From Siphonodentalium dalli (lineage: Eukaryota > Mollusca > Scaphopoda > Gadilida > Siphonodentaliidae): a stretch of 64,000 nucleotides of DNA. Positions within the stretch are counted from its first letter, which is position 1, and each line of letters begins with the position of its first letter. The stretch is from the NCBI GenBank assembly GCA_032622095.1, contig CP136069.1:125383450-125447449 (forward strand), in the 5' to 3' direction. The translations under genes were made by a program, and so were the position numbers. The notes under the pieces were generated by a model. It ran no database searches, had not been told where the DNA came from, and saw only the letters and a list, made by a program, of their open reading frames with translations. Shown here in pieces: positions 447 through 27,400 of this stretch.

Positions 447-3400
447 CTGAAAGGAAAAAAGAACCAGTTTTTCTTGGTGAAAGTTCGGACGACCACGATT
501 CAATAGTAAGTGGAGAAATCGGGTCTGACAAAAACTTAGATAGTCTGTTGGATCACACAATTGTGTTTTTGTCACAGATGGGGAAATCGTGGGTTGTTCG
601 TAAGCCATGGTTAACCATGTGATTAACTACCCTATGATCTTTACATCTACGATTTTTACACACATGACTGGATACGCCACGATTTTCGCAGCGAAACAGT
701 GCGCAATATTCATTTTTTACTCATGATCTTGTCATGAGCATGTGCAGTTTAACTACCCACAAAGAAAACTCTCCACTTACAATTGTCATCTGAACGATCA
801 CTTAGACTGAATTATTACAATGTGATGAAGGTGGGAAGCGTAACCTGACCTGGGGACAACCCTACCCAGGGGTATTTTGGGTCGTGGTCGTCTCAATTTT
901 TTAGTAAATATTTTTGGCCCATTTACAATATTTTTGGAGGATTAATTTTGACTGATTGCGACTGTAATCCCAGTAAAAAATGGGTCGATCATACTTGATT
1001 GGGCGATTTTTTTTACGAATTAAATCACATGGAATCTATATATCAACTAACAAACACAAATCTGTTTGGAAATAATGGTCATCAGCTTCGTTGGTGTGTG
1101 CCCCGGATATCTATATATATAAAAGAGTAGAATCTGTGTCTGTCTGTTCGGATTTTTCTCCCAGACCCCTGGAGATATTTCAACCAAATTAGTTTATCAA
1201 TATTGTGGATCTGAAGAATATTGGCAGCCATGTTTTTTTTAATGTATTTCGGGAAAAAAGGGAGGCTTTCATCTAGAGGTCACCCGAAGATCCATATGAA
1301 GCTTGGTGATGATTGGATGAAAAATGTGACCTTTGCGGTGTGCTAAAGGATTTAGTCATACAAAGAGCAAAATCCAAGATGGCCACTGGCAGCCATGTTT
1401 ATTAACAGAATTTGGATAAAATGGTAAGCACTCATCTTGAAGTTACCACGAGGATCCATATAATGTTTGGTGATGAGTGGATGATGGATATGCTCTGTAG
1501 GGTGTTCTAGGAATCACTGAACTAAATGATTTCCCATAGATGGCAGTTTTAACGTTTCAGCCAAATTCACTTGATTGATGCCTGTGAAACCACTCAAGTG
1601 ATGCTTACCCAGCTAGATTGACACCCGTTTATCATGAAAATGCAAGAAAATACTTAGGTCATGTGTTCACTTTTAAAAATAAATCCCCAATTCAACAGGG
1701 CTATCCCGCAGCAAAATTTTACCTGTAAAAACCCCGAACTACAGATAGTTAACAATTTTCCAACTCACAAAAATCCATTCCCCCATTAATTCACCAGTTT
1801 AAATTATTTAGATATGATGTACAAATCAAATAAACAAGATTTCATCCTTTAATAATGTGTCGGAAATGGTCTTATAAAAAATATTATTTATATCCCTGTC
1901 AAATTGATTCAATTAACATCGATTATGCTCTGGCTAATTTTCGCTCAAACACAGTACAAAAAAATGTTGCCCCACATTCCCTGTAAATGGTTCGAGAAAA
2001 AGTGCTTCACTAAGTTCTTACCCCTTGACCTTTGCAACATACTGCTCCAGTTCTCTGGTGGATGTCTTTGTTTCGTATGTTTTCCTTTGAGGAGCTCCAT
2101 AAGCTCCGATATCAACATAGTACTCATCTTTCCCTGTGTTTGGGTGAACCATTCCTGGTTGGTTATACAACATGAAGGGACATAACCACAATGGATAGAT
2201 CTGAAAGATAAGTTTGATATCAGTCTTACTCTCATGCTATATACGTTTAGATGATACATACCCAATGTTATTTTGTTCTATATGTGATTATATTTATTGA
2301 TGTTGACAAACAAGTATCATGTTTCATGCTGAAACAGAGCAATATAATATTCGGATAGTCTTCAGTGGTGAAGTATAATAATGTGTCCCGACAAAGTGAC
2401 AGTCATATATACATACCGAGTTTGTGCCTCCATAAATCTGATATATATAGATAAGACATATATATTCAAAGGTATGAGGCACGTACTGGCTCAGTGGATC
2501 TGGAATGTGGACATTCAATGTGAGTCATTCTTGCGTACTTGCCTTGAGGGCTGATTGAAAGGCTATATGCTGAGGAGCCTTTTAAGCATACAAATGCTGA
2601 TAAATAAATTAAGAAATTGCCATTAGTAAATAAACAAAGGTTTATACATGCACAAACATATTTCTTTCCAAAAGGTGGTAAGTGTGATAAAACAGGTGAC
2701 CCACACCCAGTGATAAGACATCTCACCAACACAGCTGTGACGTCTGCTGTGAGTATGGGGCCTCTGTTCTCATAAAAAACATATATGAATAAATGATGAA
2801 CTAAAGATGCCTTAGCGATGATAAAATCATCATGTGTGGATTAGCACATGTACCTCACTCCGCCTCATCCAATATGAATTGGGGAAGATGGAGATGCAGC
2901 AAAGTATATGGAATATAATGCATAATCATAAAAATGATAAACTTTGGATGTCATGGCGACAACTGAAACCATTGCAGGTAGATTAGTATGTGTACCTCAC
3001 TCCGCCTCTTCACCATATGGGCGATCCCATATGCATTAGGGAAATATGGAGATGCAGAAAAGTATATGGAATATAATGAATAATTATAAAAATGATAACA
3101 AAAAATGCAGGCGACGACAGAAATCATCGAGGTAGATTAGTCAGGATATAAAAAATGTGGACGACTAATTGCGGATAATCATGCAATGCAATATTAGACT
3201 TAAGAGCGATGATATAAACCATCGCGGGTTGTTTATGTGCACGAAAACAGAAAATAAATCACATGAAGGTTTGTCAAAGGAAAAGTATTTTAAAGGTAAA
3301 CAGGTTTGTGCACCCAAATTATAATTAATGGAGCATCCACGCTGAAGACTGAGATGTCTCCATGACATAATAGTGTGGTCGTGGGAGAGTTGAACCCGGA

Positions 3401-6400
3401 AGAAATTGGATACAAGCTGATTTTGGTGTCATTCGACGCGGAAAAACACCAGGAACAACATATCCAAAATCCACAAAAATCCGCTCATGGGAAAATTCAG
3501 GATCCAAGATGGCGTCCAATATGGCTCACACAATACGTAAATTTCCCATTAGTGCCCAATAACACATGAAACCTCAGTAATTATGGAAAATTACGCACCA
3601 AAACATATTCCACATTGAAAGTAGCACATGTCAGAACACGCATACTGTTAAGGTTGTTGTCTTTGGGGGGCAGATGGCTATCAATATGGCCGCTGAATTC
3701 GGGAACATTATAATTTTTAAGTGTATACAAATATTCTTCTAATAAAAATGTCTATTATTAGCATATCCTACATTTCAATACAAGCAGTTTTTGGTACATT
3801 TTGACGCAGAAAGGAACCGAGACCAACATATAATTTTTTTTTTAAATAGCACAAGCAGTCAGGATACAAGATGGCTTCCAAGATGGCGGTCAAATGATGA
3901 TATTTCGAGTCAGTGCCCATTAGCACGCAAACTCCGGGTTATATGGAAACTATTTAACCAAAACGGAAGCTACATTGACTTAGTCATGATACAGATGATA
4001 CATAAATGTCCTTCTCGCGTTGTGCAATTGCTATCAATCGTGAGAATAGCACAGTCGGGTTGAATTGCATTCGATCATTCTCGACTCTGATCCCAGGATA
4101 TAAATGGTCAAGAGATTTTATTTGATCCTTCCGCTTGATCGAGGCATCTGTGATACTCATGCTGTTGAGCTTTTGGTGGATCTCAAAACCGACACGTTCA
4201 GAGTCAAAACAGTTAACACTGTCCCCATCACTAGATGTTAACCCAGACGACAGGGAGCGTATTTTACCTTCACTCAAATCAAAAGGTTCATGTTCGTCAA
4301 ACCAACGTTGTATGATTATCAAATCATCAGAGTCACATTTGCTCCTACTTTCCCCGAACTCCGCGTGCTGTTCACTGGTGGTGTATCTAAGTTTGGTTAA
4401 TTCGGTCATGGCATCATGAATCTCGGCACACCTATGCATGCTATATATCCATTGCATTCGGACAGATTCGGTCATTCCCCTACCTCTTGTCAGACCTCCT
4501 CTGCTTTTGATAGAAATAAGGACTTGTTCTATCATGAGATATGTTGATAATCCTGCCCATAATCTATTGCTTCTACGTACAGCATGAAACCCATTTTCGG
4601 CGAAACATTTGTACAGCCAAGGGTGTTTATTAGGTAGTTCCAACATTTGCTGTAGATAGAGTCGACAGCTCTTGGCATAGTTGGCGTGACCGGTTGCGGC
4701 AAATAGATTGAGCATTTGCCCCACAGTAGCGAGATGCAGACTCCAATTTCCTGTCCTCTCTGCTCTAATGAAATTCTTCAACGTTTGCACATATTCCAAA
4801 TACAGAACCCACAACTTTGCTGTCGGAGATTTCTCAATAAGCAACGATTTATACTTGTTCAAACATTCCTCGAGTTTCATCAATGGTTGAGACCCAGAAA
4901 CAGCACTTGCAGGAATTACTCTACTTTCAATAGATTTGTACAAATCACTTATTGCGTTCATCTCATCCTTCTCGATTCTAGGTATTGTTTTTTCTTCAGA
5001 CTGATGTATAGCTACTGTGGCATCATGCGAAGCATCGAGCACCTTCTCAGTCTGCACTGTTCGGCCACCCCATGGGCTTGTCGGACTTGTACTTGTTTCT
5101 GTAGATGGCACAATGTCTGATATCAGCTTATTTGTAAGAGTAGCATCAATTAAGAAATGTCCACGCATTGCATTTGATATTGCCTTCCCATAAATCATAT
5201 GTGTAACTGCGTTAGGGCCATAGACATTATCCAGAGCCTCTTCCAAACCCGAACCCTTCATTAGTGAACCAATACTGCCCATGAAACTCATAATGGTATG
5301 AAAGCCACCCATACTGCAGACTATATTCATGGACATGGTCATTATAATATTCGTGGCCTTTATCCACAATGGCTGATCAAATGTGATACATGGTGTCAGG
5401 ATGTTTAGTTTGGTCGCTTGACCCTGAACATAAAGGAGAGTTGAATATGTACAATCCTCATCGGACGGATTCAAATCTATAATCGGCAAAAACAGAACAT
5501 CAGACTTCGTTGGGCACTTCTGGTAATATATTACATGAAGCCCGACCAATTTGTCCGAGGCTTTGTAGATTGGTTCACAAACCACCCTGAATGCCACAGT
5601 AGATCAGTGTTGAGCTCTGGGGGCAATGTGTGTGGAGTAATCAGTTGAAGCAAAGGTTTGTAAGACAACGATGAAAGGCCTTTACCGGGAGAATCAACAT
5701 AATGGCATATCTGGACTCCTTTACCTCGAACTAGCTCATCAACCTTCGAACGTTGGCATCTGTTAATGGTGTGTGTGGCCTGAGGCTAAGCTGTTTTTGA
5801 TCTTTTGGAGTAGATATTACTAACATGCCCATACCATGGAATGTTCCCTGACCATCTAAAGTTGCTATGTTATGGTCTACATTGTCGGCAACCCACTGTG
5901 TACATGTTCCGGGGAAATAGTCGGTTAGAATATCGCCAGGACGTTCGGTTTGGATGACAGACTGTTTGTATCTTTCTACTTCGTCATGTGTAATGGAGAA
6001 CCCCAACATAGATAAGTCATTCACCAACCATTTTGAACCGAACACGTTATCCATCTCCACACCCACACCAAAGAGCGTTCGTGTTATAACAGATCGAGGT
6101 CGAGCAGATTGAATTATGGAGTGCCCAATGCTATTTATCTTCAAATCGGATAGAATCAGAACACTTAACATCGTGTGCAAATGATGCGGAACCCACTGTC
6201 GAACCCGATCAATGGAAGATATATCTTCACTGGTTGGGTATGAATTAGTGTCATATTCAGTCTCTCTTATTTCTGTTCGTAATGTCCTTGCTGCTGTCAA
6301 CATTATCCTTTCAGTTTCCTCTTCAATACTATCTATCTTATCACAGTACCATTTTTCGTTTATGATAAACTTTGCCATGTTCTGAAAACACACTATATTG

Positions 6401-9400
6401 TTCCGTCCCTCAACTTCGGCGAAAAATATAAACTCCCTGTAGTGGTCCTGCAGTTTATCTTTGAGCCATTTCATACTATACACATGACAATCACCCGCAT
6501 ACTCAATCATTTTGTCATGCAACTCCCCCAGAGTATATAATTCTGCACCAGCTTCGAGCCAACTACAAACCATCTCAAACCATTGCTGCATTCCCTGGTC
6601 CGATCTCCTACCACTTTTCGCCTTATCGACCAATGTTGGATTTTCTTTATCCTTCTGGAAATCAGTATAACAGCGTGAGTGGTAGACATATTCTGCTGCT
6701 ACCAAGTCTATACAACCATACAACCGATCCTGCACATCGGATGCCCATTTGGTCCCACTTTTATCACATCATTTTAGGATATTGTCCCGCATTGGGAGGG
6801 TTGTTACTTGCCTCACCCCTGATTTGTCGGGGTGTCGAGGATCTATAGTGGCAGGCGTACCACAAAACATAGTCTGTCTTGAAATCAAACGGTCACACAC
6901 CAGATCTCAGTTGTTTATTTGGAGGTACTTCTGTAGTTATTTCGACAGAACGGTGTCGCCTTTTTGGATCTGTGAAATCTCTACGACAATTCGAATGGAC
7001 AAGAACTTTACCGACTGGTGTCATCTGATAGCGCTCATTCAGATAATCTTTCAGGTCGTGCCTCCCACTTTTATCACAGAAATTGATCAATGTCAAAATG
7101 CCTTTCTTAGACACGATGACGGGAGGTTTGTCATCAAAACCCGATGGGCATAAAACACACATGTCATCCCGAAATTGCGTAATTTCTTGCGGCTCGCAAA
7201 ATTCTGCCATAACTATATATTCAATACAAGACCAACTGATATATGGACTGACACTACATTTAAATGATAGAAATATAGAATATGTATAGTAACAGGTCTC
7301 CTGCGTACGTTGGCACCGTTAGGTTTCAACAGGAGAAAAGTTATAAGCCTTCAATCCAGTGGTTTGCGAATCAAAGTATTCCTACTTGAACATACACAGC
7401 CGGAATGAGACAATACAAGCAACGAAGCTACATGTATATGCGAAAAAGCAGCCGATAGGCGAGACCTTTTATGCGCATATGTGAGAACAAGCATATAGCA
7501 CGTGTTCTGTTATAAACGCTCTTTATGTTCTGTTCTGTTATATACACGCTCATTATGACATTTAATGGAAAGGTATAGCAAAACACGTGTTCTGTAGCAA
7601 ATGCTCTTTATTGTTGAACGAACCGACATTGCCAGCCAGCTAATATAGATATCAGTGATACACATAAACTTGGTTTATTCGCTGTATGGACTTACAAATC
7701 GCAGTTATAGTAAATTATATAAACACATTAAGCACATAAATTTGTCAATGTTCATAACTGGTTGAACAAGTGCACCGCTAGGCGGAGGTAACGCCCCCGA
7801 CTGTACAATCAGAGAAACTTTCTGGTTAAGCGCTATAAAAATGCCACATGTTGTTCTATATTAGCTTCAAATTTGGTCTGGTGCCACAAAAATAGAAGGA
7901 AAACTGAATTTTCTAAAAAAAAACTGAATTTTTTAAGTCGAAAAAGGGTCATAACTCTCACAAAAATTATCCGATTGAACCGAAATTTTACCTTGACCTG
8001 TATTGCGATATTGGTAATACACAAAAAAACGGGTTTTGCAAATAAACAATCCAAAATCAAGTTATCATCTGGAAACCAAAAAAAGTAGCAGAAAACCTGA
8101 ATTTTCTAAGTCCAAAAAGGGGCGTAACTCTGGAAAAAATGGGCGGACGAAACCGCAGTTATGGGGACATCTTGTCCCCCCGGCTGGTCTATTGGCATAC
8201 CAAAGATCAACTGAATTGAATTAGCGAAACCAAAGTTATGAGTTGAAATGTTCGTACGGACGGAAGGACGGACGGACGGAAGGACGGAAGGACGGACGGA
8301 AGGACGGACGGAAGGACGGACGGACGGAGGGCTCCACTATATACCCCCAAATCTCCATCGGAGATCGGGGGCATAATAAATTGATAAAAACGGCATTTGA
8401 GAGTCAAACATGTGTTGTATTTCAAAGTGCTCTGAAATCCTTGTCCATGCGCGGATTTTGGCAAATTTTGGATATGTTGTTTCTGTGGCTTTATCGGTTA
8501 GATTGATACCAAATTTAACATGTATTCCAGAAAATATGACATGCCAATATAATTGACTGTTGTCTTAGACAAATATATACTTGAAAATTATAATTTTCTC
8601 GAATTTGGCTGTTATATTAACAGAAGTATGTCCCAATTGACAACAAAATTGTTTATATATATGTTCTAACATATGTTACTATCAATGTGAGATCCGTTTT
8701 TGGTGAGATTTTTCCATATTCACTGAGGGTTTGCGTGTCAATGTGTGTTGACTGGAACATTATTCATTTGGCGGCCATCTTTTATGCCATCTTGGATCCT
8801 GAATTTTCCCATGATCGGATTTTTGCGGATTTTGGATATGTTGTTCCTGAAGCTTTTCCGCGTCGAATGACACCAAAATCAGCTTGTATCCAATTTCTTC
8901 CGGGTTGACCCCCAAATTCAGCTTCAACGACCATACTATAAACCATTGTGGGATATGTAATGAAAGATAGAAAAAAGTAGATGAAACTATTATATATTGA
9001 TTTAACCAAGTTTAGCTCTTACTAGCTTATCTTTAAGATTCTTATTCTTCTTATATGTGATAAGGCCATCCAAAATTAATTATTTGTTTCTCAGGCAATT
9101 TTGTTTTCAGATCAGTGCGGGAGGGAGGATTTTAGTGTTTTTTTCCCAATCACAGTGATGAATGACTATATAGTACAATACTGCATACAAGCCTTGAAAT
9201 AGGGTGTCTGTCATTTGCAGAATGAGGTCCCCAGAGGGTGAATTTAGTGATGCTATCCCGCATAGCTTACATCTCAGGAGAATGAGGTTCCCAGGGGGTG
9301 AATTTGGTGATGCTAGCCCGCTATGCGGGGTAGCCTCAATAAATTCACCCTCTGGGGACCTCATTCTGCAAATGACAGACACACTATTTCAAGGCTTGCC

Positions 9401-12400
9401 TGCATAAGGAACATAACTTGAAATACTAGTCTGGAGATATGTAATGTAATGGCCCACTCCCGCTGAATATTTTGTTGGCTATTTGGCCCACTGTCAGACC
9501 ATCTATCATGGAAACCACTGACCATGTTCTTAATTTTTATTTTTGTACGATATCTGGACCAAAAGCAACATGGTTTCCTCATCGATAAGAAAACTTCTTG
9601 GTCATAATTCGAAACCAGGTAAAATACAACAAAGCAAAATAATAACAGAAGTGAAGCTTCCCACAGAAACTTTCTCTTGCAGAAATAATGGAAAATTGTT
9701 CCTTTCTATGATGTTGTATTAGTTTCCACCTTCAGAATGACAAATGTAGCATCCTTATATAAACTTTTAAACAGCTTTCCCAATATGTTTCGTTCAGTTT
9801 TCAGTTTTCCCAATACCGGTATGTTTTCAGTTTTCCCAATATGTTTCATTCAGTTTTACTCAGAAATTTGACACAGACGACCATGACATTTAATCTTCAA
9901 ATGATAGATTCAGGATTTTGGCAGGGTATCTCTGTGGACCAATCAACCCTAGTTATTCACAAGTTATTAAATTGCACTGTACTTTATTGGTTTCTCTTTA
10001 GTGATTTTTCTGCCATTTGAATGCCAAATTTCCCTGGTATTCTACGAAAGTCCACAATGAAATTTGCTTTGCATCTGATTTTATAATACTGTAATCGCGA
10101 CCAGATGATCGTATTTGGGGTCTACGGTAATCGTCTGTGCTTTATACATTGATGACAATAATTATGGATATATATTGATTGCAATGGTAATTGTTAACAA
10201 TGTTGCACTGAAACTTTTATATATAACTTTCAAGGGAAATATGATGATTAGTAAACTAGCAGATTTCTAATCAATTATCGCCAAAATTCGCGTTGATGTC
10301 GACTAGACGAATAATCATTTCAGCATTAGGTGAAATACTCAGCCCTCAAAATTATAAAAAATGTCCCATGTCAAATTTAATGCTGTGGCATGTTACATTC
10401 CACATGTTGCCACAGCATTGCTTATTGCCATGGACAATTTCGAGGACTGAATACATGTATATATATTTTTTTTTTATGAAAACAAGAATTGAATCACAGA
10501 TGCAGGGTCGAGTTGCTCATATTGAAAATGTATTAACTGTAAAAAAGAGAGGCCGATCACGATCGGCAGATGTTTAACCCATCCCTTGGCGATAGTAAAT
10601 TGTTATGATCAGAATCATAATCTTTTAATGTTGAATTATAGAGTATACTGTTATGATCTAAAGTAATATATGACAAATGTACATAATAACCAGTAATAAC
10701 ACAACTTATTGGAATGTATGAGTCAATATAGAAGGGTTAATATAACATCTAAACTCTAGAGCCTGTCACCACTATCATAGTGTAAGCAGTTCTATTCATG
10801 TTGTTGCAAATTGCCATGTGAGATATCAAAATAATATCATTATTTATTTAATGGAAAAGGTTAAAAGACATGGAATGGGTAAAAGGGGTTAAACCACCTA
10901 TCTCTGCCCTATTTGATCCAATGTAGTCCCATCATCCAAGGACTTAGAGAGCTCCATTGGTCTAGTTAAATCAATTCACATGGCTAAGTTGTGGTTAAAA
11001 AGATAGCTAAATCAATTTATCCAATAATTCACCAATCTGTGTCTCTTATACAGAGCTAACATATGAGGGCTATAAATAACTCTCAATAAACCATATTGTC
11101 TTTTTATCTCTCTCACACTGTCTCACAGAGAAGCAGGTATTTATTAATTGTACAGTTACTTGGGTTATAATTGGATAATTCTTAGTTGAAAAAGGGCCAT
11201 ATCTCTGGTATAACAAATTGAGAAACTCACATACCAAATTTGGTTCCTATCAGATGAAAAATGGTTGATTTATCAAAGTATGTGTGAATTATATGTCAAA
11301 GGACCATAACTCCATTTAAAAAACTCGGATCAAACCCATATTCGAACTCGATCTGTAATTTGGGCCGAGAAACTCACATACCAAATTTGGTTCCGATCAG
11401 ATAAAAAATGTTTGAGTTATGGCAGAATGCGTGAATTCTAAGTCGAAAAAGGGCCATAACTCTGTAAAAAAAAGTCGGATCAAACCCATATTCGAACTCG
11501 ATCTGTATTTTGGGCTGAAAACCCCATATACAAAATTTGGTTTTGATTAGGTAGAAAATGTTTGAGTTATCGCATTACACGTAAAATGTCTACGGATGGA
11601 CGGACGGACACACGACGAGTGGTCAATCCATACAACGACACTATGTTTACCATACTATGGTATGGGTAAACATAAAAACAAAATCAAGCCAATGTGTGTA
11701 TTGGATACTGAACTAACCATATTGTATATAATATTCATTGAAACAAATGAACTAATATTATTATCTGATCTCAAATGAAGGTACCCAATCTTCCCATGTC
11801 ATGCATGTGGCTGAAATCTATCAGAAGGAATTGTCCCAAATTAAAAACAGACAAAATCAAGGCCAATGTACATGTATGAATATATGTGTTTTCTAATATT
11901 AAATTTACTGTTCACCAGATCCAATTTCATATATTGCATGAATCCAGTACATTTTTCCTCCACTAGGCATATTGTAACAGTATTATTACAAGTGTTACAA
12001 TTGTTTAGTTAGAGTGTAATCCTTATTATCGGTGGATTTAGACTCTCCTTAACATACCGGTAAGTGAGAACTGCCCTGTTAGATATCTAAAAAGATGGTC
12101 ATCTGCTGGCAATAATTAACAACTCATACAACTGGAAATATTATGATATCTGCGTATCTAGTCTTCAATACAACTTCTCTTTAATAGTTCTCTACTATAT
12201 GACAGGAGGTTATTGTTCTGTAGGAAGATATAATCTGCTTTCTTCTCAAAAGGAAAAATGACCAGAGATAATCAAGGCAATGAGAGTATAAACGCTCTTT
12301 ATATTATAAGCAAAATGCTCTTTATATTATATCACACTTTTAAAAGTTAAAATCTGGCCATGTAAACCTACAGATGTGTAGTGCAGGTGTCAAATCACAT

Positions 12401-15400: not shown

Positions 15401-18400
15401 ACACTTATATAGGTGAGGGGGGGGGGGGCCCTTATCTCACCCTGTAATTAAATTTCAAGAATAGGAAAAACACCAGTCTTGTGCTGCCATTAATCAATTT
15501 GACAGTTAGAATAAACAAACAGCCAGCCACCAGTGTTGTTTATCTTGCTTGACCCACCAGAGCTCTGTATCATGTCATCACTCATTTCATAACAGATTTC
15601 ACTTGGAATGACAACATCTATAAAAATCATCTCATATACTCTGGATGTTGGATGATCACATGGTAATTTATTGATATCATTATATTACATGAAACTATTG
15701 CAATAAAATCTTCATATTTTCAAAACAGGATATCACACCTAATTAATCCTATAAAACTCAAATAAATGAAAGTGTCAATTTTTTATTTATTATTTAAATA
15801 TTTTTTTTTATTGTTATTAATTATATATGCTAAATTTAGCAAGGAGCTAAATCTAAAAAAAATTGAATTTTTTTTTTTAATTTTTTTTTTCTCGAAAAAG
15901 GGTCATAACTCCTTTAAAATTAATCGGATCAAACCCATATTCGGACTCGACCTGTATTTTGGGCTGTGAAACTCACATACCAAATTTGGTTCCAATCAGA
16001 TAAAAAATGTTTGAGTTATGGCAGAATGCGTGAGTTCTAAGTTGAAAAAGGGCCATAACTCTGAACAAAAACTCGGATCAAACCCAAATTCGAACTCGAT
16101 CTGTATTTTGGGCTGGGAAACCCATATACAAAATTTGGTTTCGATCAGATAGAAAATGTTTGAGTTATCGCATTACTCGTAAAGTGTCTACGGACAGACA
16201 GACAGACAGACGGACAGACAGACAGACGGACGAAAGACGAGTGGTCAATCCGGGCAACGACACTATGTTTACCATACTATGGTATGGGTAAACATAAAAA
16301 TGGTTATCATACACAACACTGTCTGATATACCAATTATTTACAAAAAATAACTAATTAAGGGCCATAACCCAGCACGAAATAAGTGGACATATTTTTCAA
16401 ACTCGATCAAGACATTGTTGAGAAAGTCTCATATATGCCGAATATCAACAAATTCAGTGGATAATTTTACAAGTTGTTGCGATCAAATTTATCGCACTAT
16501 CACCACCCACAGATGCCCGCCCATGAATCAACCTTGTCAAACTATAATTCAGATTTTTTTAAATAATAATTTCAGAATTTTTCAATAAAATCATGAAGAA
16601 ATTCCGCTAAAAAATGCCACACAACCAGGCTTTAAAATATTAAAAACATTATCAGAAATTAATTAATACTGACATCCAGCTTCGAATGGAAGACCCCGAG
16701 AGCATCTCCAAGTTTCTCTATCGGCACTAACATATCTTGTATAAGCTGGTGTTTCTCATACATTCTCTTTACTGCGTCTGTCTGTGTCAGCTTAAGTAGC
16801 GATATCTTAGGAGGCACAGCCCAGCCAAACAGGAAGCGGAATATCGGATTGTTTCCAAATGGTAAGATGTTCTGAAATATTCAAGAATTGTTTGTCTATA
16901 AATCAACAACATTTACTTTTGAGTTTCTTCTCAACAAAACCTTTTGATAACTACAGTAGTGCTCTAAGTAAGCGACTTCTTAACCACAGCAGAATTATGG
17001 GTAACTTTTCAGGATTTAGTCGGAAATATGGCTTGTTGCCATTCATCGGAAAGCTCTCGGGGATAAGAAGTCGCTTACTTAGAGCACTACTGTACATACT
17101 CAATGATGGGTTGTTACTTGATTCAGATTAATTCATTTGTGGGGATGTTCATCTAATGAGTTTGACAGAAATCCCTATTTGATTTTTAACCGTTTTAATC
17201 CTGCGCTGGTGCAGCATTAATTATCCTGTGCCAGTGCATTCTCTTATACATATACAAGTCTCGCATAGGGAGCCTTGCATATCTAAGAGATTGCACTGCC
17301 TTCCAATGTCAAGGTAAATATTGTTAGGCCAATGAATTCTCTTATATATGTGAGGCTCCCCATATAAGAGAATGCATTGGCACAGGGTTTTCGCTAAATT
17401 TCAGGAAGCTCCAGTCATGGAAGAGTTAACTTACTAATAAATCTATGGGAAACATAGGGTGCTTCTCTGTCTGTTGATCCTATTATCTGAAAATCCAGGC
17501 CAATCAGAATATTTCATTCCTAGCAGTGAATGTGATTAAAATGGCATTTTGTTCTGTTCTGTCAGACTGATGGAAAGACTTCATCATATGAAATCGGATC
17601 GTTTATTAGTTATTCTAACATTCCATGACCAGCATGTTGAAGATCTATTTGAAATAAATACAAATGATCCTAACTCAAGATGTTTTCTTTCATATTTAGG
17701 TCATACTTCTTAAATAGGGGTGCCAAGATTAATCGTATAATCGATGAACCGTTGATAAAGCCGATAATCTATTACCATTTCCATCGTCGATTAATCTGCG
17801 TTATTTATTTCAGACGTCAGAAAATGCCGGGTTTGAATACCGCGTTTGTTTTACACAGTTTAATCTACAACCGAGGGGTTAACATCCTTTGATCGCATAT
17901 CAAAGAGATTCCAATAACATGAGTACTACTAATACATGTTGCAAACAGTCGGCAGTTCATTTGATGATGCAACATGGTTTCTCGTCGGGTCGTTCCATAT
18001 TCTACAAATTGGCAGCACTGCAGATTTGAACACATTGCGACGTCGTTGTATATTTATACTTGAAAGGTGGCACTATGTCTTTGAAATGTGCCGACTGTCA
18101 CCATGTTCAATGAACTGAATGCACTCGCCCTTGAATCTGATTGGACCAATGGGAAGTTGATTGACATTCTCTCTAAAACCAGGGAACCAATATATATGGC
18201 ATTTTAATCAGCGATGTGCTCCGCAATGTAATTGATAGTGTTCTTTGTTTGCATAAGTACAAATGTATACTTAGAAGTTACTAGTACAGGCTATCGCATA
18301 TCGTGTGGTGATTGCTGAATGAAACTGACTATTATCAAATACTTAGCTTGTTCTGAGTCCTGCAATTTGCAGGTGGGGGCACACGTTTGTGATTGTTAAC

Positions 18401-21400
18401 CATGGTCTGGAAGTTTGATGAAACTTATAGTTTCCGTAACATTTGATTCCTTTTTTTAGGAACCGCTAGCGGCCCATCGTTCATTCCTACTTTTATATTG
18501 TTTGTATATATGGCTATTCATAAAACTGAAATTAATCGCTACGTTCGTTCTAATGAACTCACAAATATTATAACCATAACATCGCCGATAACATCAATAC
18601 ATTGTGCTCATTAGTGATTAACAGTGGTTTATGATGCACTTTATTAACATAAAAATTACATCAGCCGATGCGTCAAACAACCAGCGACAGTGCAGTTAAC
18701 CAGCAGCCAGCCAATATGCCATATTATGGAATACTTCCACTGATGTTATTAATACTGGTAATAGGTATGATTAATCGATTATAGTCGATTATTGATGACC
18801 GATTATCGATTATCAAAATCAATAATCGTGGCACCTCCAGTCTTAAACTATTCTTGCTTGAAAAGTGAAAATTATAGTTGGCTTTAACATAGTGGAATAA
18901 AGAGGATGGAAATTGAGTATTGGAAATACTTCTCTCATCCTGGATAATATATTATGGATGAATAATACTTCAACAGCATGGACAGTGCAAGTGTCTTCAT
19001 ATACAGTAAAACTGCTCCAAACCAGACCCTCTCCATAAAGTAAAACCTCTCCAAAAGGGACCCGGCCTTTACATGTAGTAAATTCTCTCCAAACCAGATC
19101 CTCTCCATTCAGTAAAACCTCTCCAAACCAGGCCTTCTACAAACTGAACCCCTCTCAATACGGAAAAACCTCTCCAAACCGGACACTCTACAAACTGGAC
19201 CATCTATAAAACAGACCCTCTACAAACTGAATCCCTCTCCATACAGTAGAACCCCTCCAAACTGGACCCTCTACAAACTGAATCCCTCTCCATACAGTAA
19301 AACCACTCCAAACTGTACCCTCCCCATACAGCAAAACCACTCCAAACTGGATCCTCTACGAACCAGACCCTCCACAAACTGGACCCTCTCCAAACAGTAT
19401 CCCTTACAAACAGAATCCCTCTCCATACAGTAAAACCTTTCGAAACTGGACCCTCCACAAACCGAATCTCTCTCAATACAATAAAACGTCTCCAAACTGG
19501 ACCCTCTACAAACCGAATCCGTCTCCAGACCAAACAAACTGCGCAGTTCCAATTCAGCCAAGTGTATCCACACTAAGAATTACCTCTGTAATCCACAACC
19601 TCTCCATTCTGAACACCGAACGGAATTTTGAGTCCTAACAAACCGAACACATGCATTTTGACCTCCGGAAAACGAATACGAATGCATCTTGGATCAGTGG
19701 TGGTTTAGTAGCATTGTCTAACGTACTGGCCTAATCAGTTGTCATTTATTTGAATAATGCTGTAGTCTGACAATAAAAACAGGAGCCTGATTAAATATTG
19801 AGATGTTCGTTATACAATTTCAATGAACAATTGAAAATTAAGTTTGATTACGTTATTGAGAGTTTGTATTTACATCACTATAGTAGTGACAGAGTTTTCA
19901 ATGTAAACACTAGTTCTCAATAAATGCAGTGTGGTACATTTGTGGTCAAAATATTTTAATTAACAATGATTGAACCATAGCACAGATGGCACACACAGCT
20001 TAATTCAGAGAAAAAATTAAAATTTAAAATACAATATACAATTATTACAAATATTATTTACCATTGTGTTGATTATTAAAGTTGCAACAGTTAATAATGT
20101 ACTATATGGGACTTTATTACACATTGTAACAGCGGTTTCATGTTTCATAATGGTACAATTTTCTATAAACTAAACATCTCTCTAAACCAAACTGAAAAGT
20201 CAGTCCGAATGATATTCGGTTTGAAGAGGTTTTACTCTACCTACCTCCATCTGCCAGAATATGCTCCTTGTATGCCTGTGGTAATAGTGTCGTAGTGGAA
20301 TATATTCTGTGGATGGTCCTGTTCTCAGAAACTTTTCCACATGTTTGTAAAACCAAGGTTTATAATAGTTACCAATAGCATTGATCTGAAATATATTAAA
20401 AAAAATTATATACAGTAATGCCCTAATTAATCGCCCCCTTAACCACAGCAGAATTATGGGTAACTTTTCAGGATTTAGTCGGAAATATGGCTTGTTGCCA
20501 TTCATCGGAAAGCTTTCCCCTAGAGCTTTCCTATGAATGGCAACAAGCCATATTTCCGACTAAATCCTGAAAAGTTACCCATAATTCTGCTGTGGTTAAG
20601 GGGTCGATTACTTAGGGCATTACTGTAGTTTATAATAATTGTTCTAAATCAGTAGGTTAGATCCCTCAACGTCGAGGAAATATTCAACAACAGATATTTA
20701 CATAGTTTGTGTGTGTTACACTAATTTACATAGTTTGTGTGTGTTACACTAATTTACATAGTTTGTGTGTGTTACACTAATTTACATAGTTTGTGTGTAT
20801 TACACTAATTTACATAGTTTGTGTGTGTTACACTAATTTACATAGTTTGTGTGTGTTACACTAATTTACATAGTTTGTGTGTGTTACACTAATTTACATA
20901 GTTTGTGTGTTACACTAATTTACATAGTTTGTGTGTGTTACACTAATTTACATAGTTTGTGTGTGTTACACTAATTTACATAGTTTGTGTGTGTTACACT
21001 AATTTTTGTTCAGTGATTGGTCAACTTCCAATTGGGTCACGTATTTCATATCCCAATAAATCATACCAAAACACGAGCCGACATCACATCTTATTGACCT
21101 AGATGACGAAATATGGTAGATAGATTAACTTGGCATGTTTTAAGTGTGCAGCCATGATTAATCAATCGATAATTCACAGGCAGCATATTGGGCTATCTTA
21201 CAGCACTTCATGGTACAGGTCTGCAAATTTGAGATGAACGACCATTCAGTTCACCTAAAACAAAATTCCGCGAATGAAAAAAAAGTTGCACCAAATTTTT
21301 CTATATATAGCCCTTGTGATCACTGATTCTCACCTTAATTATTGCTCAATCACATCTCAAAATGAGACATGTTCAAAATTATTAGTTCAATGAGTTGCCC

Positions 21401-24400
21401 ATTAGCAGTTAATGATTCCAGTTGGAGTAATTATAACAGTTTGTGTAACTCTTCTGGCAACCTTTGGGTCACCTAAGCACAAACCAGGCGAACAAAAAAT
21501 AGGTTTTGCACAATTTTGAAATCTGCAGGCCTGATGGTAACCGACAGATTTCAGAAAAAAAATTCAGCTGAGTTTATAGAAATTAATAAGGAAAAGGCTA
21601 TTTAAATAGAAGGTCATTAAAATAAAACATATTTGTTCTCAGGCAATTAGATCTCAATTTTAACATGAGGGAGGGAGGCTATTTTAATTTTTTTCTCAAA
21701 ATCTGCAAAAAAAGACTCCAGAAAAAACAAGAGCATCACTGGGGTGTGGCAAAATACGCCCATGGAATTTCAACAAACGGCCATAATGAGTATTAAATCC
21801 ATATGCCAAATTTGAAAAAAAGTCAGATAACTAAAATTAAAGTCATCACCTGGAAACCAAAATCAAAGGCAAATTCTAAGTCGAAAAGGACAATAACTCT
21901 GGCAAAAATGGGTGGTCAGAATCCAAATCCGAACTTGACCTGTATGTTCATGTGGCTAATCTACATACAAAAATTTGACAATAGTCAGACAACTAAAACT
22001 AAAGTTATCATTCGGAATCCAAAATATTTGGCGGGCGGAACACAATTTTGAACTTGACCTGTATTTTGGGCTAGTAAACGCACATACGAAATTTCATTCC
22101 ATTCAGTTCAGACTTACTAAATTTATCATCCGGAAATGAAATTGAGGACTAATTACAAAAAATGTTATCGTAACTCTGGTAACAATTGGCATGCGGAACC
22201 CAAATTCAAACTTGACCTGTATTGTGTACTAGTAAACCCACATACTAAATTTCATTCCATTCAGTTTAGACTTACTAAAGTTATCATCCGGAAAGGAATG
22301 AATGAATGAATAACATAATATGTTCCGTTTTTCTCAAAACGAGCATATAAAAATGAAAGTGTCAATAGCTCAACTTGGATAGGGGTTAATTTCATATGTT
22401 ACAGTCAATGGAGCAATTAGGATTGAGGAAAGTTGAATTGTCCAAGTAATACTAGATGTCAACATGAACAGATGTATAAAGTTTGGGATTCAGCAAGTAT
22501 ATATGGAATGACAAAGTATATAAAACCCATAATGTTCACCAGAACGTCACTGGAGGAATTGCATGAACAACCCTCTTAAGATCAGACCAAGTACACTCCA
22601 TGACTGTTGTCAGAACATAATTTTTGCCGAATATTAGAAATGATCTTTGGAATAAATTGGATAACTAGAAGTGATCCTGAACACTTCTGTAAATTTTCAA
22701 AACATTTCTCCAATAAATGTCGGCTGCATGTGCTGCTTTGGATTCAAATGTTTTAAATGCGGCCATGATTTTCAACAAAATTCGAAAATGAAACTGTCAA
22801 TGACACTGTAGCTCTATTTGGAGAGGGGATAATTTCATGGGTTACAGTCATTGGAGCGATTAGCAATGCGGAGATTTGACATGTTTAAGTAATACTTGAT
22901 ATCAACATGAAGAGATATACATTAAGTAAAATCCAAGATGCCACTGGTGGCCATGTTTTTCAATGAAATTAAAAAACATTTTTATAGCTCCAATCTAGTA
23001 GATCCATATCAAGATCAATATGAAGTTTGGTAATGATTGGATGAGGGAAGTTGATTGTAGGGTGTGCTAAAGGGTTTAATCATGCAAAGAGTAATATCCA
23101 AATTGACTGCCGATGACATGTTAATATTTTTTAACAAAATTCAGAAAAATTAGATTACTTCCATCTTGTGGTCATCCCGAAGATTCATGTGAAGTTTAGT
23201 GACGATCGGACAAGTAGGGTGTCGTCTGTAGGGTGTACCAAAGGATTTAGTCAAAGAGTAAAATTCAAGATGGCCGTTCAACAAAATTCGGAAAACTTTG
23301 ATGGCTTCCACCCAATGATCAATATCAAGTTTGGTGATGATCAGATGAGGGATGTGGTCTGTAGGTTGTGCCCCAGGATTTAGTCATGCAAATAGTAAAA
23401 TCCAAGATGGCTGCTGGTGACCATGCTTTATGGGCGAATGACCCCAAAATGACTCAATCCCATCTACATGTCAATATTAACATCCATGATCAATTTCATG
23501 ATGCTCAGATGAAGAGTACGGCCTGTAGCCTATGCTAATGGACTGAATTTTTAAATCCAATATGGCTGCCAGTGGCCATGTTTTATTGTTGTATGACCCC
23601 AAAATGACTCGTTCCCATCTACATACCAATATTAACAGCCATGACAAAATTCAAAATGATCCGATCATAGGTACCAGCTGTAGCCTGTTCTAATGGAAAT
23701 TGTTGACGGATGAAACCATGCACACATGGACGAACGATACCAATCCATGGCAATAGCTCAAATTTACAAAGCTGTGATATGTTGGGTGTGCTAAAGAATT
23801 TAGTCATACAAAGAGTTACCAAGAGGACCGCTGGCAGCCATTTCTTAACAGAATTCAGAAAAAATGGTAAGCTCCCATTTAGAGGTCACCCCAAAGATAA
23901 GATGAAAGTGTCAATGACACTGTAGCTCAACTTAGGTAGGGGAGTAATTTAATGGTTGACAGTAAATGGAGGAATAGGAAAGGTGCTAATTGAAATGTCT
24001 AACCTGCGCCAAAGGATTTAGTGATGCAAAAAGTAAAATACAAGATGGCTGCTGGTGGCCATTTTTTTTGGCCAATTGACCCCAAAAGGACTCGTTCCCA
24101 TCTACGTATAATTGTTAACATCCATGACAAATTTTATGAAGATCTGACCAAAGCTTCGACCTACAAATTTCATGATGATCAGACGAACAGTACGACCTGT
24201 AAGCCGCGCCAATGGATTGAATTTTGAAATCCAAGATGGCCGCTGGCAGCCATGTTTTTTGGCCGAATGACCCCACAATGATTCGTTCCCATCTACATGT
24301 CAATGTCAACATTCATGACAAATTTTATAAAGATTAGACCAAAGGCAACCTATAGCCCGTGCCAAAGGATTTAGTCATGCAAAGAGTAAAATCCAAGATG

Positions 24401-27400
24401 GTTGCTGGCGGCCATGATTTTTGGCCGAACGACTCCAAAATCACTCGTTCCCATCTACATATCAGTGTTAACATCCATGACAAATTTCATAAACTTCCGA
24501 CCAACACAACGACCTGTAGCCCGCGCCAAAGGATTTAGTCATGCAAAGAGTAAAATCCAAGATGGCTGCTGGCAGCCATGTTTTTTGGCCGAACGACCCA
24601 AAAATCACTTGTTCCCATCTACATGTCATTATTAACATCAATGACAAATTTCATGATGATCAGACGAACAGTACGACCTGTAGCCCGCGCCAATGGATTG
24701 AATCTTGAAATCCAAGATGGCTGCCAGTGGCCATGTTTTTTGGACGAATGACCCCAAAATGACTCGTTCCCATCTACATGTCAATGTCAACATTCATGAC
24801 AAATTTCATAAAGATCAGACCAAAGGTACGACCTGTAGCCCGCACCAAAGGATTTAGTCATGCAAATAGTAAAATCCAAGATGGCTGCTGGCGGCCATGT
24901 TTTTTGGACGAATGACCCCAAAATGACTCGTTCCCATCTACATGTCATTGTTAACATCCATGACAAATTTCATGATGTTCCGATCAAAGCTACGACCTGT
25001 AGCCCACGCCAAAGGATTCAGTCATGCAAAGAGTAAAATCCAAGATGGCTGCTGGCGGCCATGTTTATTGGCCGAACGACCCCAAAATGACTCGTTCCCA
25101 TCTACATGTCAATATTAACAGCCATGACAAATTTCATGATGATCAGACGAACAGTACGACCTGTAGCCCGCGCCAATGGATTGAATTTTGAAATCTAAGA
25201 TGGCCGCCAGCGGCCATGTTTTTTGGCCGAATGACCCCACAATGATTCGTTCCCATCTACATGTCAATGTCAACATTCATGACAAATTTCATAAAGATTA
25301 GACCAAATGTACAACCTGTAGCCCGCGCCAAAGGATTTAGTCATGCAAAGAGTAAAATCCAAGATGGCTGCTGGCGGCCATGTTTTTGGCCGAACGACAC
25401 CAAAATCACTCGTTCCCATCTACATGTCATTATTAACATCAATGACAAATTTCATGATGATCAGGCGAACAGTACGATCTGTAGCCCGCGCCAATGGATT
25501 GAATCTTGAAATCCAAGATGGCTGCCAGCGGCCATGTTTTTTGGCCGAATGACCCCAAAATGACTCGTTCCCATCTACATGTCAATGTCAACATTCATGA
25601 CAAATTTCATAAAGATCAGACCAAAGGTACGACCTGTAGCCCGCGCCAAAGGATTTAGTCATGCAAAGAGTAAAATCCAAGATGGCTGCTGGCGGCCATG
25701 TTTTTCGGCCGAACGACCCCAAAATCAGTCGTTCCCATCTACATGTCATTGTTAACATCCATGACAAATTTCATGATGTTCCGATTGAAGCTACGACCTG
25801 TAGCCCGGGCCAAAGGATTTAGTCATGCAAAGAGTAAAATCCAAGATGGCTGCTGGCAGCCATGTTTTTTGGCCGAACAACCCCAAAATCATTCGTTCCC
25901 ATCTACATGTCATTATTAACATCAATGACAAATTTCATGATGTTCCGATCAAAGCTACGACCTGTAGCCCACGCCAAAGGATTCAGTCATGCAAAGAGTA
26001 AAATCCAAGATGGCTGCTGGCGGCCATGTTTATTGGCCGAACGACCCCAAAATGACTCGTTCCCATCTACATGTCAATATTAACAGCCATGACAAATTTC
26101 ATGATGATCAGACGAACAGTACGACCTGTAGCCCGCGCCAATGGATTGAATTTTGAAATCTAAGATGGCCGCCAGCGGCCATGTTTTTTGGCCGAATGAC
26201 CCCACAATGATTCGTTCCCATCTACATGTCAATGTCAACATTCATGACAAATTTCATAAAGATTAGACCAAATGTACAACCTGTAGCCCGCGCCAAAGGA
26301 TTTAGTCATGCAAAGAGTAAAATCCAAGATGGCTGCTGGCGGCCATGTTTTTGGCCGAACGACACCAAAATCACTCGTTCCCATCTACATGTCATTATTA
26401 ACATCAATGACAAATTTCATGATGATCAGGCGAACAGTACGATCTGTAGCCCGCGCCAATGGATTGAATCTTGAAATCCAAGATGGCTGCCAGCGGCCAT
26501 GTTTTTTGGCCGAATGACCCCAAAATGACTCGTTCCCATCTACATGTCAATGTCAACATTCATGACAAATTTCATAAAGATCAGACCAAAGGTACGACCT
26601 GTAGCCCGCGCCAAAGGATTTAGTCATGCAAAGAGTAAAATCCAAGATGGCTGCTGGCGGCCATGTTTTTCGGCCGAACGACCCCAAAATCAGTCGTTCC
26701 CATCTACATGTCATTGTTAACATCCATGACAAATTTCATGATGTTCCGATTGAAGCTACGACCTGTAGCCCGGGCCAAAGGATTTAGTCATGCAAAGAGT
26801 AAAATCCAAGATGGCTGCTGGCAGCCATGTTTTTTGGCCGAACGACCCCAAAATCATTCGTTCCCATCTACATGTCATTATTAACATCAATGACAAATTT
26901 CATGATGATCAGATGAACAGTACGACCTGTAGGCCGCGCCAATGGATTGAATCTTGAAATCCAAGATGGCTGCCAGCGGCCATGTTTTTTGGCCGAATGA
27001 CCCCAAAATAACTCGTTCCCATCTACATGTCAATGTCAACATTCATGACAAATTTCATGAAGATCAGACCAAAGGTACAACCTGTAGCCCGCGCCAAAGG
27101 AAATTGTTGACGGACACACGGACGACGGACGCCAAACCATGGCAATAGCTCAAACTTACAAAAGTAAGTTGAGCTAACAAGTGGCCTGTAGGGTGTGCCA
27201 AAGGATATAGTGATGCAAAGAGTAAAATACATGATGACTGCCGGCAGTCATGTTTTTATGAGGGATGTGAACTGTAGGGTGTGTCAAAGGAATTTGTTGA
27301 CAGACACCTGCATGGACGACCTACCCATGGCAATAGCTCAAACTTTACAAACTTTACAATCGATGGAGGTGCCTGTAGTGAACACAGAATTTTTATTTAT

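Follow-up and report, generated by a model that had tools for sequence, protein, structure and literature searches.

Introduction

The Academ superfamily of DNA transposons and its AcademX lineage, in whose name the X stands for XPG, are said to have been described by Kapitonov and Jurka in 2010 and by Kojima in 2020. EnSpm/CACTA elements, whose termini begin CACTA, and PIF/Harbinger elements, whose 3-bp target is TWA, are further groups that make 3-bp target-site duplications. Academ is listed as a Repbase superfamily in a passage of PMC4455052 and is counted among the superfamilies with a DDD/E transposase in a passage of PMC9587614; an excerpt of PMC10045372 gives 3- or 4-bp duplications for AcademX and 9- or 10-bp duplications for AcademH and ties them to the encoded helicase and nuclease, and an excerpt of PMC10294476 reports 100 curated Academ elements in bivalves with a mean length of 5,565 bp. 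Our literature searches on Academ with XPG, XPG with DNA transposons, DUF6589, and the Academ nuclease in molluscs returned no paper. Here we compare with these systems an element at positions 3371-8938 of a 64,000-nt stretch of Siphonodentalium dalli DNA (GCA_032622095.1, contig CP136069.1, positions 125,383,450-125,447,449, forward strand; hereafter the window), which is very likely a cut-and-paste DNA transposon of the Academ superfamily (AcademX type), preserved here in a decayed and non-autonomous copy.

Results

Inverted ends repeated across the genome enclose one gene

The element begins with TAGTGTGGTCG (3371-3381) and ends with CGACCATACTA (8928-8938), and on each side it is flanked by the TAA that an initial annotation of the window had noted, the two copies of this target-site duplication lying at 3368-3370 and 8939-8941. 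The strong part of the left terminal inverted repeat (TIR), with TAGTGTGGTCG at its tip, occupies 3371-3525 on the plus strand and is defined by complementarity and by the genome-wide repetition of a 201-bp end; that of the right TIR, with CGACCATACTA at its tip, occupies 8774-8938 on the minus strand and is defined by complementarity to the left arm. Within them, arms of 133 nt (3393-3525 and 8774-8906) are 93% complementary. The strong arms bear out the inverted ends described earlier, but the weaker inverted homology (about 78%) can be followed inwards from the left end for about 357 bp and stops short of the 450 bp that had been claimed.

When the genome (2.23 Gb in nine contigs) was searched with a 201-bp left-end probe, all 40 of the places scored, the best 40 of 3,333 candidates, matched at 98-100%. 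This repetition of the end is far beyond chance, and the element is present in many copies in the S. dalli genome, the count being a lower bound. The gene, whole or partial, was present in 20 of 20 loci drawn from the 39 matches other than the window's own (in L018 and L019 its distal part only), and both ends were found in 16 of the 20, the exceptions being L010, L018, L019 and L024; in L018 and L019, which are of the long form described below, the right end was sought and not found. One duplicated locus accounts for both L012 and L021, and L016 and L017 share flanks; with duplicated loci collapsed and the window included, the sample holds 15 independent insertions with both ends. The identical flanks of L012/L021 and L016/L017 are local or segmental duplications of filled sites. 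A perfect 3-bp duplication surrounds 14 of the 15 insertions (TAA three times, TTA twice, TAT three times, ATA twice, and CAA, AAA, GAA and AAT once each). The initial annotation was therefore right about the length of the duplication, but its TWA consensus is not fixed: the target is A+T-rich, and TAA or TTA makes up 5 of the 14.

The same pairing was seen when copies were selected by the protein. A search with a 539-aa open reading frame of the window gave 88 matches (the best 80 of 2,816 candidates were scored), and the protein-selected sample consists of eight copies at 57-67% identity, chosen regardless of their ends. Related ends and a perfect 3-bp duplication were found in seven of the eight (L029 TGG, L033 AAA, L030 TAT, L031 TAG, L032 TAG, L087 TAG and L088 TAT); for the eighth, L089, the stretch examined contains the left end but stops before the right one is reached. 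Left ends fall into three groups, namely TAGTATAGTCG or TAGTATAATCG in L029, L033, L088 and L089, TAGTGTGGTCG or TACTGTGGTCG in L030 and L087, and TAGTCTGGCTG in L031 and L032. The elements start with TAGT (TACT in L087) and end with ACTA, and an inner TIR motif, ATATCCAAAATCCGCTAAAATCCGC, is common to five aligned diverged copies with at most one inserted base, the window having a variant of it. In four end/gene families, the window's included, related ends flank one and the same gene. The two belong together, a condition that the initial annotation had set, and in the protein-selected sample the family was not regularly found without such ends. In L089 the coding region is broken up by short repeats in inverted arrangement (L089:827-1787).

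Unfilled sites provided additional support for transposition. Twenty-five joined-flank queries, each with one copy of the duplication, were compared with the window and with the loci taken from the S. dalli genome, and three of them gave clean unfilled sites, the alignments staying free of gaps for 20 bp on either side of the junction. The site of L023 (GAA) is empty at window 17850-18153 (85%) and at L030:185-489 (83%), that of L009 (TTA) in a satellite (97%) and that of L022 (ATA) in a tandem repeat (88%); because L009 and L022 sit in arrays, L023 is the strongest case. Window 17850-18153 is itself an unfilled copy of the repeat that the L023 transposon copy entered. L011, L016/L017, L020 and L029 also gave matches across the junction, but these, being short, repetitive, junction-gapped or of low identity, were not counted as empty sites, and the joined flanks of the window insertion gave no unfilled copy among the window and the loci from its genome. 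The three empty sites, of the kind that the initial annotation had proposed to seek elsewhere, support insertion with a 3-bp duplication, and together with the TIRs and the duplications they confirm that this is a DNA transposon. Because ends and gene are paired and the copies show 3-bp duplications and empty sites, the protein belongs to the element itself and is most likely its transposase.

Intact relatives encode a long protein with candidate active sites

A single uninterrupted frame is present in four of the eight diverged copies, L029, L030, L031 and L032 (elements of 5.7-6.1 kb), measuring 1494, 1510, 1585 and 1575 codons, respectively, from stop to stop and 1466, 1501, 1547 and 1547 codons from the first Met; in the other four copies (L033, L087, L088 and L089) the frame is interrupted. 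In comparisons between families dS is saturated and dN amounts to 0.25-0.50, a pattern consistent with selection on the protein; because of the saturation no dN/dS ratio is given. The intact protein opens with a Cys/His N-terminus, followed by a core with invariant acids and a region of FEN/XPG-like motifs; in most cases it closes with a Cys-rich tail. This tail is present in L020, L031, L032, L087 and L090 (see below), truncated in L030 and missing in the L029 frame.

We take the protein to belong to a family of ‘uncharacterised’ animal proteins, and an approximate fragment of this related family served as query for distant relatives. It matched at all 150 of the places scored (the best 150 of 1,520 candidates) with 32-68% identity. 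One of these matches, L090, holds an intact frame of 1542 codons with the same layout and aligns with the window's relatives over nearly its full length (22-24% identity, E values as low as 1e-61). When five sequences, L090 among them, were aligned, three core acids with suggestive context proved invariant down to 22-25% identity: D456, D618 and E873 of L090, equivalent to D493, D663 and E969 of L031; further core acids, for example D414, D590, D869, D937 and D956 of L090, are also invariant. Because other core acids are equally invariant, D493, D663 and E969 (L031 frame), chosen among them by motif context, are put forward as a candidate DDE site. Towards the C-terminus the motifs DG.ALL, V.D.Y then IK..E..RR (FD in most), (E/D)ADT, DTD and GCDT.SA..G.GK follow one another in the order of the FEN/XPG acid motifs, and their acids are invariant to 22-25% identity.

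The core of L090, when trimmed, matched DUF6589 (PF20231) weakly over 302 residues (E 0.007, 15.5 bits with a cut-off of 27 bits), and L029, L030 and L031 gave no DUF6589 match in the Pfam search. Over the cut-off, DUF6589 was found at at least 90 places in the S. dalli genome (the best 102 of 196 candidates were scored) and in none of 14 control genomes; an example is G000:C1:11615481-11616824, part of a repeated family that perhaps has a related transposase core. As a lead from these sequence comparisons, the protein family of the element and DUF6589 may form one superfamily. No relatives were found in viral contigs, prokaryote genomes, plasmids or phages, the contig searches using two short peptide patterns each and covering collections from which records close to the S. 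dalli genome may be missing.

The window copy belongs to a shortened form founded by one deletion

Within the window's own family, L013, L014 and L020 measure 6.4-6.5 kb and carry about 1.5 kb of extra coding sequence at the 3′ end of the gene, whereas the short copies, of 4.8-5.0 kb, are without it; the deletion removed the C-terminal nuclease-motif region and the Cys-rich tail. Compared with L020, its junction lies at window 4006-4007 and is identical in 12 of 12 short copies (the window and 11 others). Because the junction is identical in all of these short copies, the window copy belongs to a form of about 4.9 kb founded by a single deletion event. In a tree of 15 copies (4,206 gap-free columns, pairwise differences of 0.7-3.6%) the three long copies cluster with a support of 0.992.

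The gene of the window, which the initial annotation had described as a decayed gene of 3.2 kb, is indeed decayed and lies on the reverse strand, but it is incomplete, since the longer copies have the additional 3′ coding sequence. It survives as four open pieces, all on the reverse strand: an N-terminal Cys/His part (6893-7318, with a probable start Met at 7208-7210), a proximal part (5731-6768, with an NVDHN motif at 5869-5883), a short piece recognised as an open frame in a different register (5531-5785), and a middle and distal part (3984-5603) with FDQPLW at 5364-5381, GGFHTIMSF at 5283-5309 and an IEQ motif at 4518-4532, which shares 66.6% identity with residues 600-1097 of the unbroken frame in L029. 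The three protein motifs quoted earlier are all present in this remnant. When 11 copies of the window family (eight short, three long) were read against an intact relative, every one had at least one frame change or stop.

The short form would have been moved in trans by fuller copies, which is the simplest account because it is without the nuclease-motif region and its frames are broken in the eight copies read. Alternatively, still within the Academ assignment, the short form could have made its own shortened transposase, devoid of the nuclease region, and decayed later; it does keep the core region, it outnumbers the long form in the end-selected sample (15 of 20 loci, the long form being represented by L013, L014, L018, L019 and L020), and some of the frame breaks differ between copies. 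In all eight short copies read, however, the core or the N-terminal part is interrupted by stops or changes of frame, and we regard such self-mobility as unlikely.

Other features of the window

An insert of about 608 bp, foreign to the element, is nested at 7767-8374. The other copies aligned with that of the window do not have it and represent its empty site. The insert has an ACGG-rich tract, a hairpin near its 3′ end and no clear target duplication; our guess is that it is Helitron-like or another non-autonomous repeat. Directly to the right of the element lies a palindromic repeat (9182-9404, 85-nt arms, 93%), and similar sequence occurs in L029. Further along, the window contains a 28-bp tandem repeat (20696-21005, 11 copies, 97% matches) and a tandem array of about 2.9 kb (24163-27101) with period readings of 164, 319 and 483 bp.

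Discussion

Taken together, our results are most readily accommodated by the AcademX lineage. Akin to AcademX as described in the excerpt of PMC10045372, the element makes 3-bp duplications (also at seven of seven diverged sites with both ends) and may encode a nuclease, the term used in that source; the AcademX nuclease is of the XPG type. Its TIRs enclose a large gene for an inferred transposase, and its size is near the 5.6-kb mean given for bivalve Academ elements in the excerpt of PMC10294476. The window copy differs from AcademX in its broken frames and in the loss of both the nuclease-motif region and the Cys-rich tail. AcademH belongs to the same superfamily, but to judge from that excerpt it differs in its 9-10-bp duplications and its helicase, and it was rejected on the grounds of the 3-bp duplications and of the absence of a helicase match in the Pfam search. 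Since the element agrees with AcademX, as these partial descriptions present it, in duplication length, in size and in its putative transposase-plus-nuclease layout, the suggestion of the initial annotation that the family was possibly not described as a transposon component is probably wrong, and the protein is very probably no novelty but the transposase of Academ, a group that has its name already. The window copy fits this assignment as a decayed member. The protein is presumably also in keeping with Academ proteins.

Several points weigh against this assignment. The element was placed in Academ by its duplication length, its size and the layout of its motifs, AcademX having been compared by description, and searches of Pfam, NCBIfam and PDB sequences with the window and intact proteins gave nothing over threshold. 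The FEN/XPG-like region was compared with archaeal FEN1, represented by 22 loci (26 were chosen out of 53, and 4 of these contained stops and were set aside). With L090 included, hhalign scored 21.7, compared with a best of 21.8 in 100 shuffles, and without L090 20.8, which 2 of 60 shuffles reached. In an ordered-block test the scores of L031, L030, L029, L020 and L032 were reached by 14, 166, 1, 9 and 25 of 400 shuffles, so that one of the five sequences clearly passed, and one of 11 control windows from elsewhere in the proteins (14.6) outscored three of the five real scores. The FEN/XPG acids were often in register in these comparisons, but the scores are not significant. Of the 15 independent insertions, L025 has a 2-bp match at its ends only. 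Finally, all 11 copies that were read from the window's own family are broken, so an active source is putative.

These points leave some room for another reading, in which the TIR transposon is genuine and brings its own transposase but represents a separate, uncatalogued superfamily outside Academ. No named transposase domain was matched significantly in Pfam, and the membership in Academ was drawn from the features listed above; if Academ references failed to match, the element would be a separate superfamily. The agreement of duplication length, inferred nuclease and size with AcademX and bivalve Academ, as far as the excerpts of PMC10045372 and PMC10294476 describe them, speaks against this, and we consider it a minor possibility.

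Membership in EnSpm/CACTA or PIF/Harbinger is far less probable still. Both share the 3-bp duplication, and L029, L030 and L033 read CACTA at their right end, but the tips (TAGT at the start, ACTA at the end) are the reverse of the CACTA layout, TWA targets are confined to 5 of the 14 duplications, and neither a Harbinger or CACTA domain nor any other named transposase domain appeared in the Pfam searches; non-TWA targets, reversed tips and the missing domain match led us to reject both. That the gene is a mere passenger in an unrelated TIR element, with which the window copy alone would be compatible, is equally improbable and was rejected, as the gene recurs between related ends in four end/gene families and neither strand of the four intact elements holds another frame of at least 150 codons.

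Returning to the Academ-type transposon, we propose that full-length copies supply a transposase that would cut at the TIRs and insert the element with a 3-bp stagger, the chemistry being a prediction. The putative DDE acids would cut the TIR ends and join them to the staggered target, the FEN/XPG-motif region of the same polypeptide may nick or trim DNA during excision or integration, and the Cys/His N-terminus, the Cys-rich tail and the inner TIR motif may serve end recognition. More speculatively, and we hold this to be doubtful, the ‘uncharacterised’ animal proteins and DUF6589 could be one superfamily that combines core and FEN/XPG-like nuclease in one polypeptide and whose deleted, nuclease-less elements spread well.

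The ends, the duplications, the unfilled sites and the unbroken copies together lend a concrete identity to an ‘uncharacterised’ animal protein family, and the candidate catalytic acids and the conserved end motif make transposition by a fused transposase-nuclease testable.

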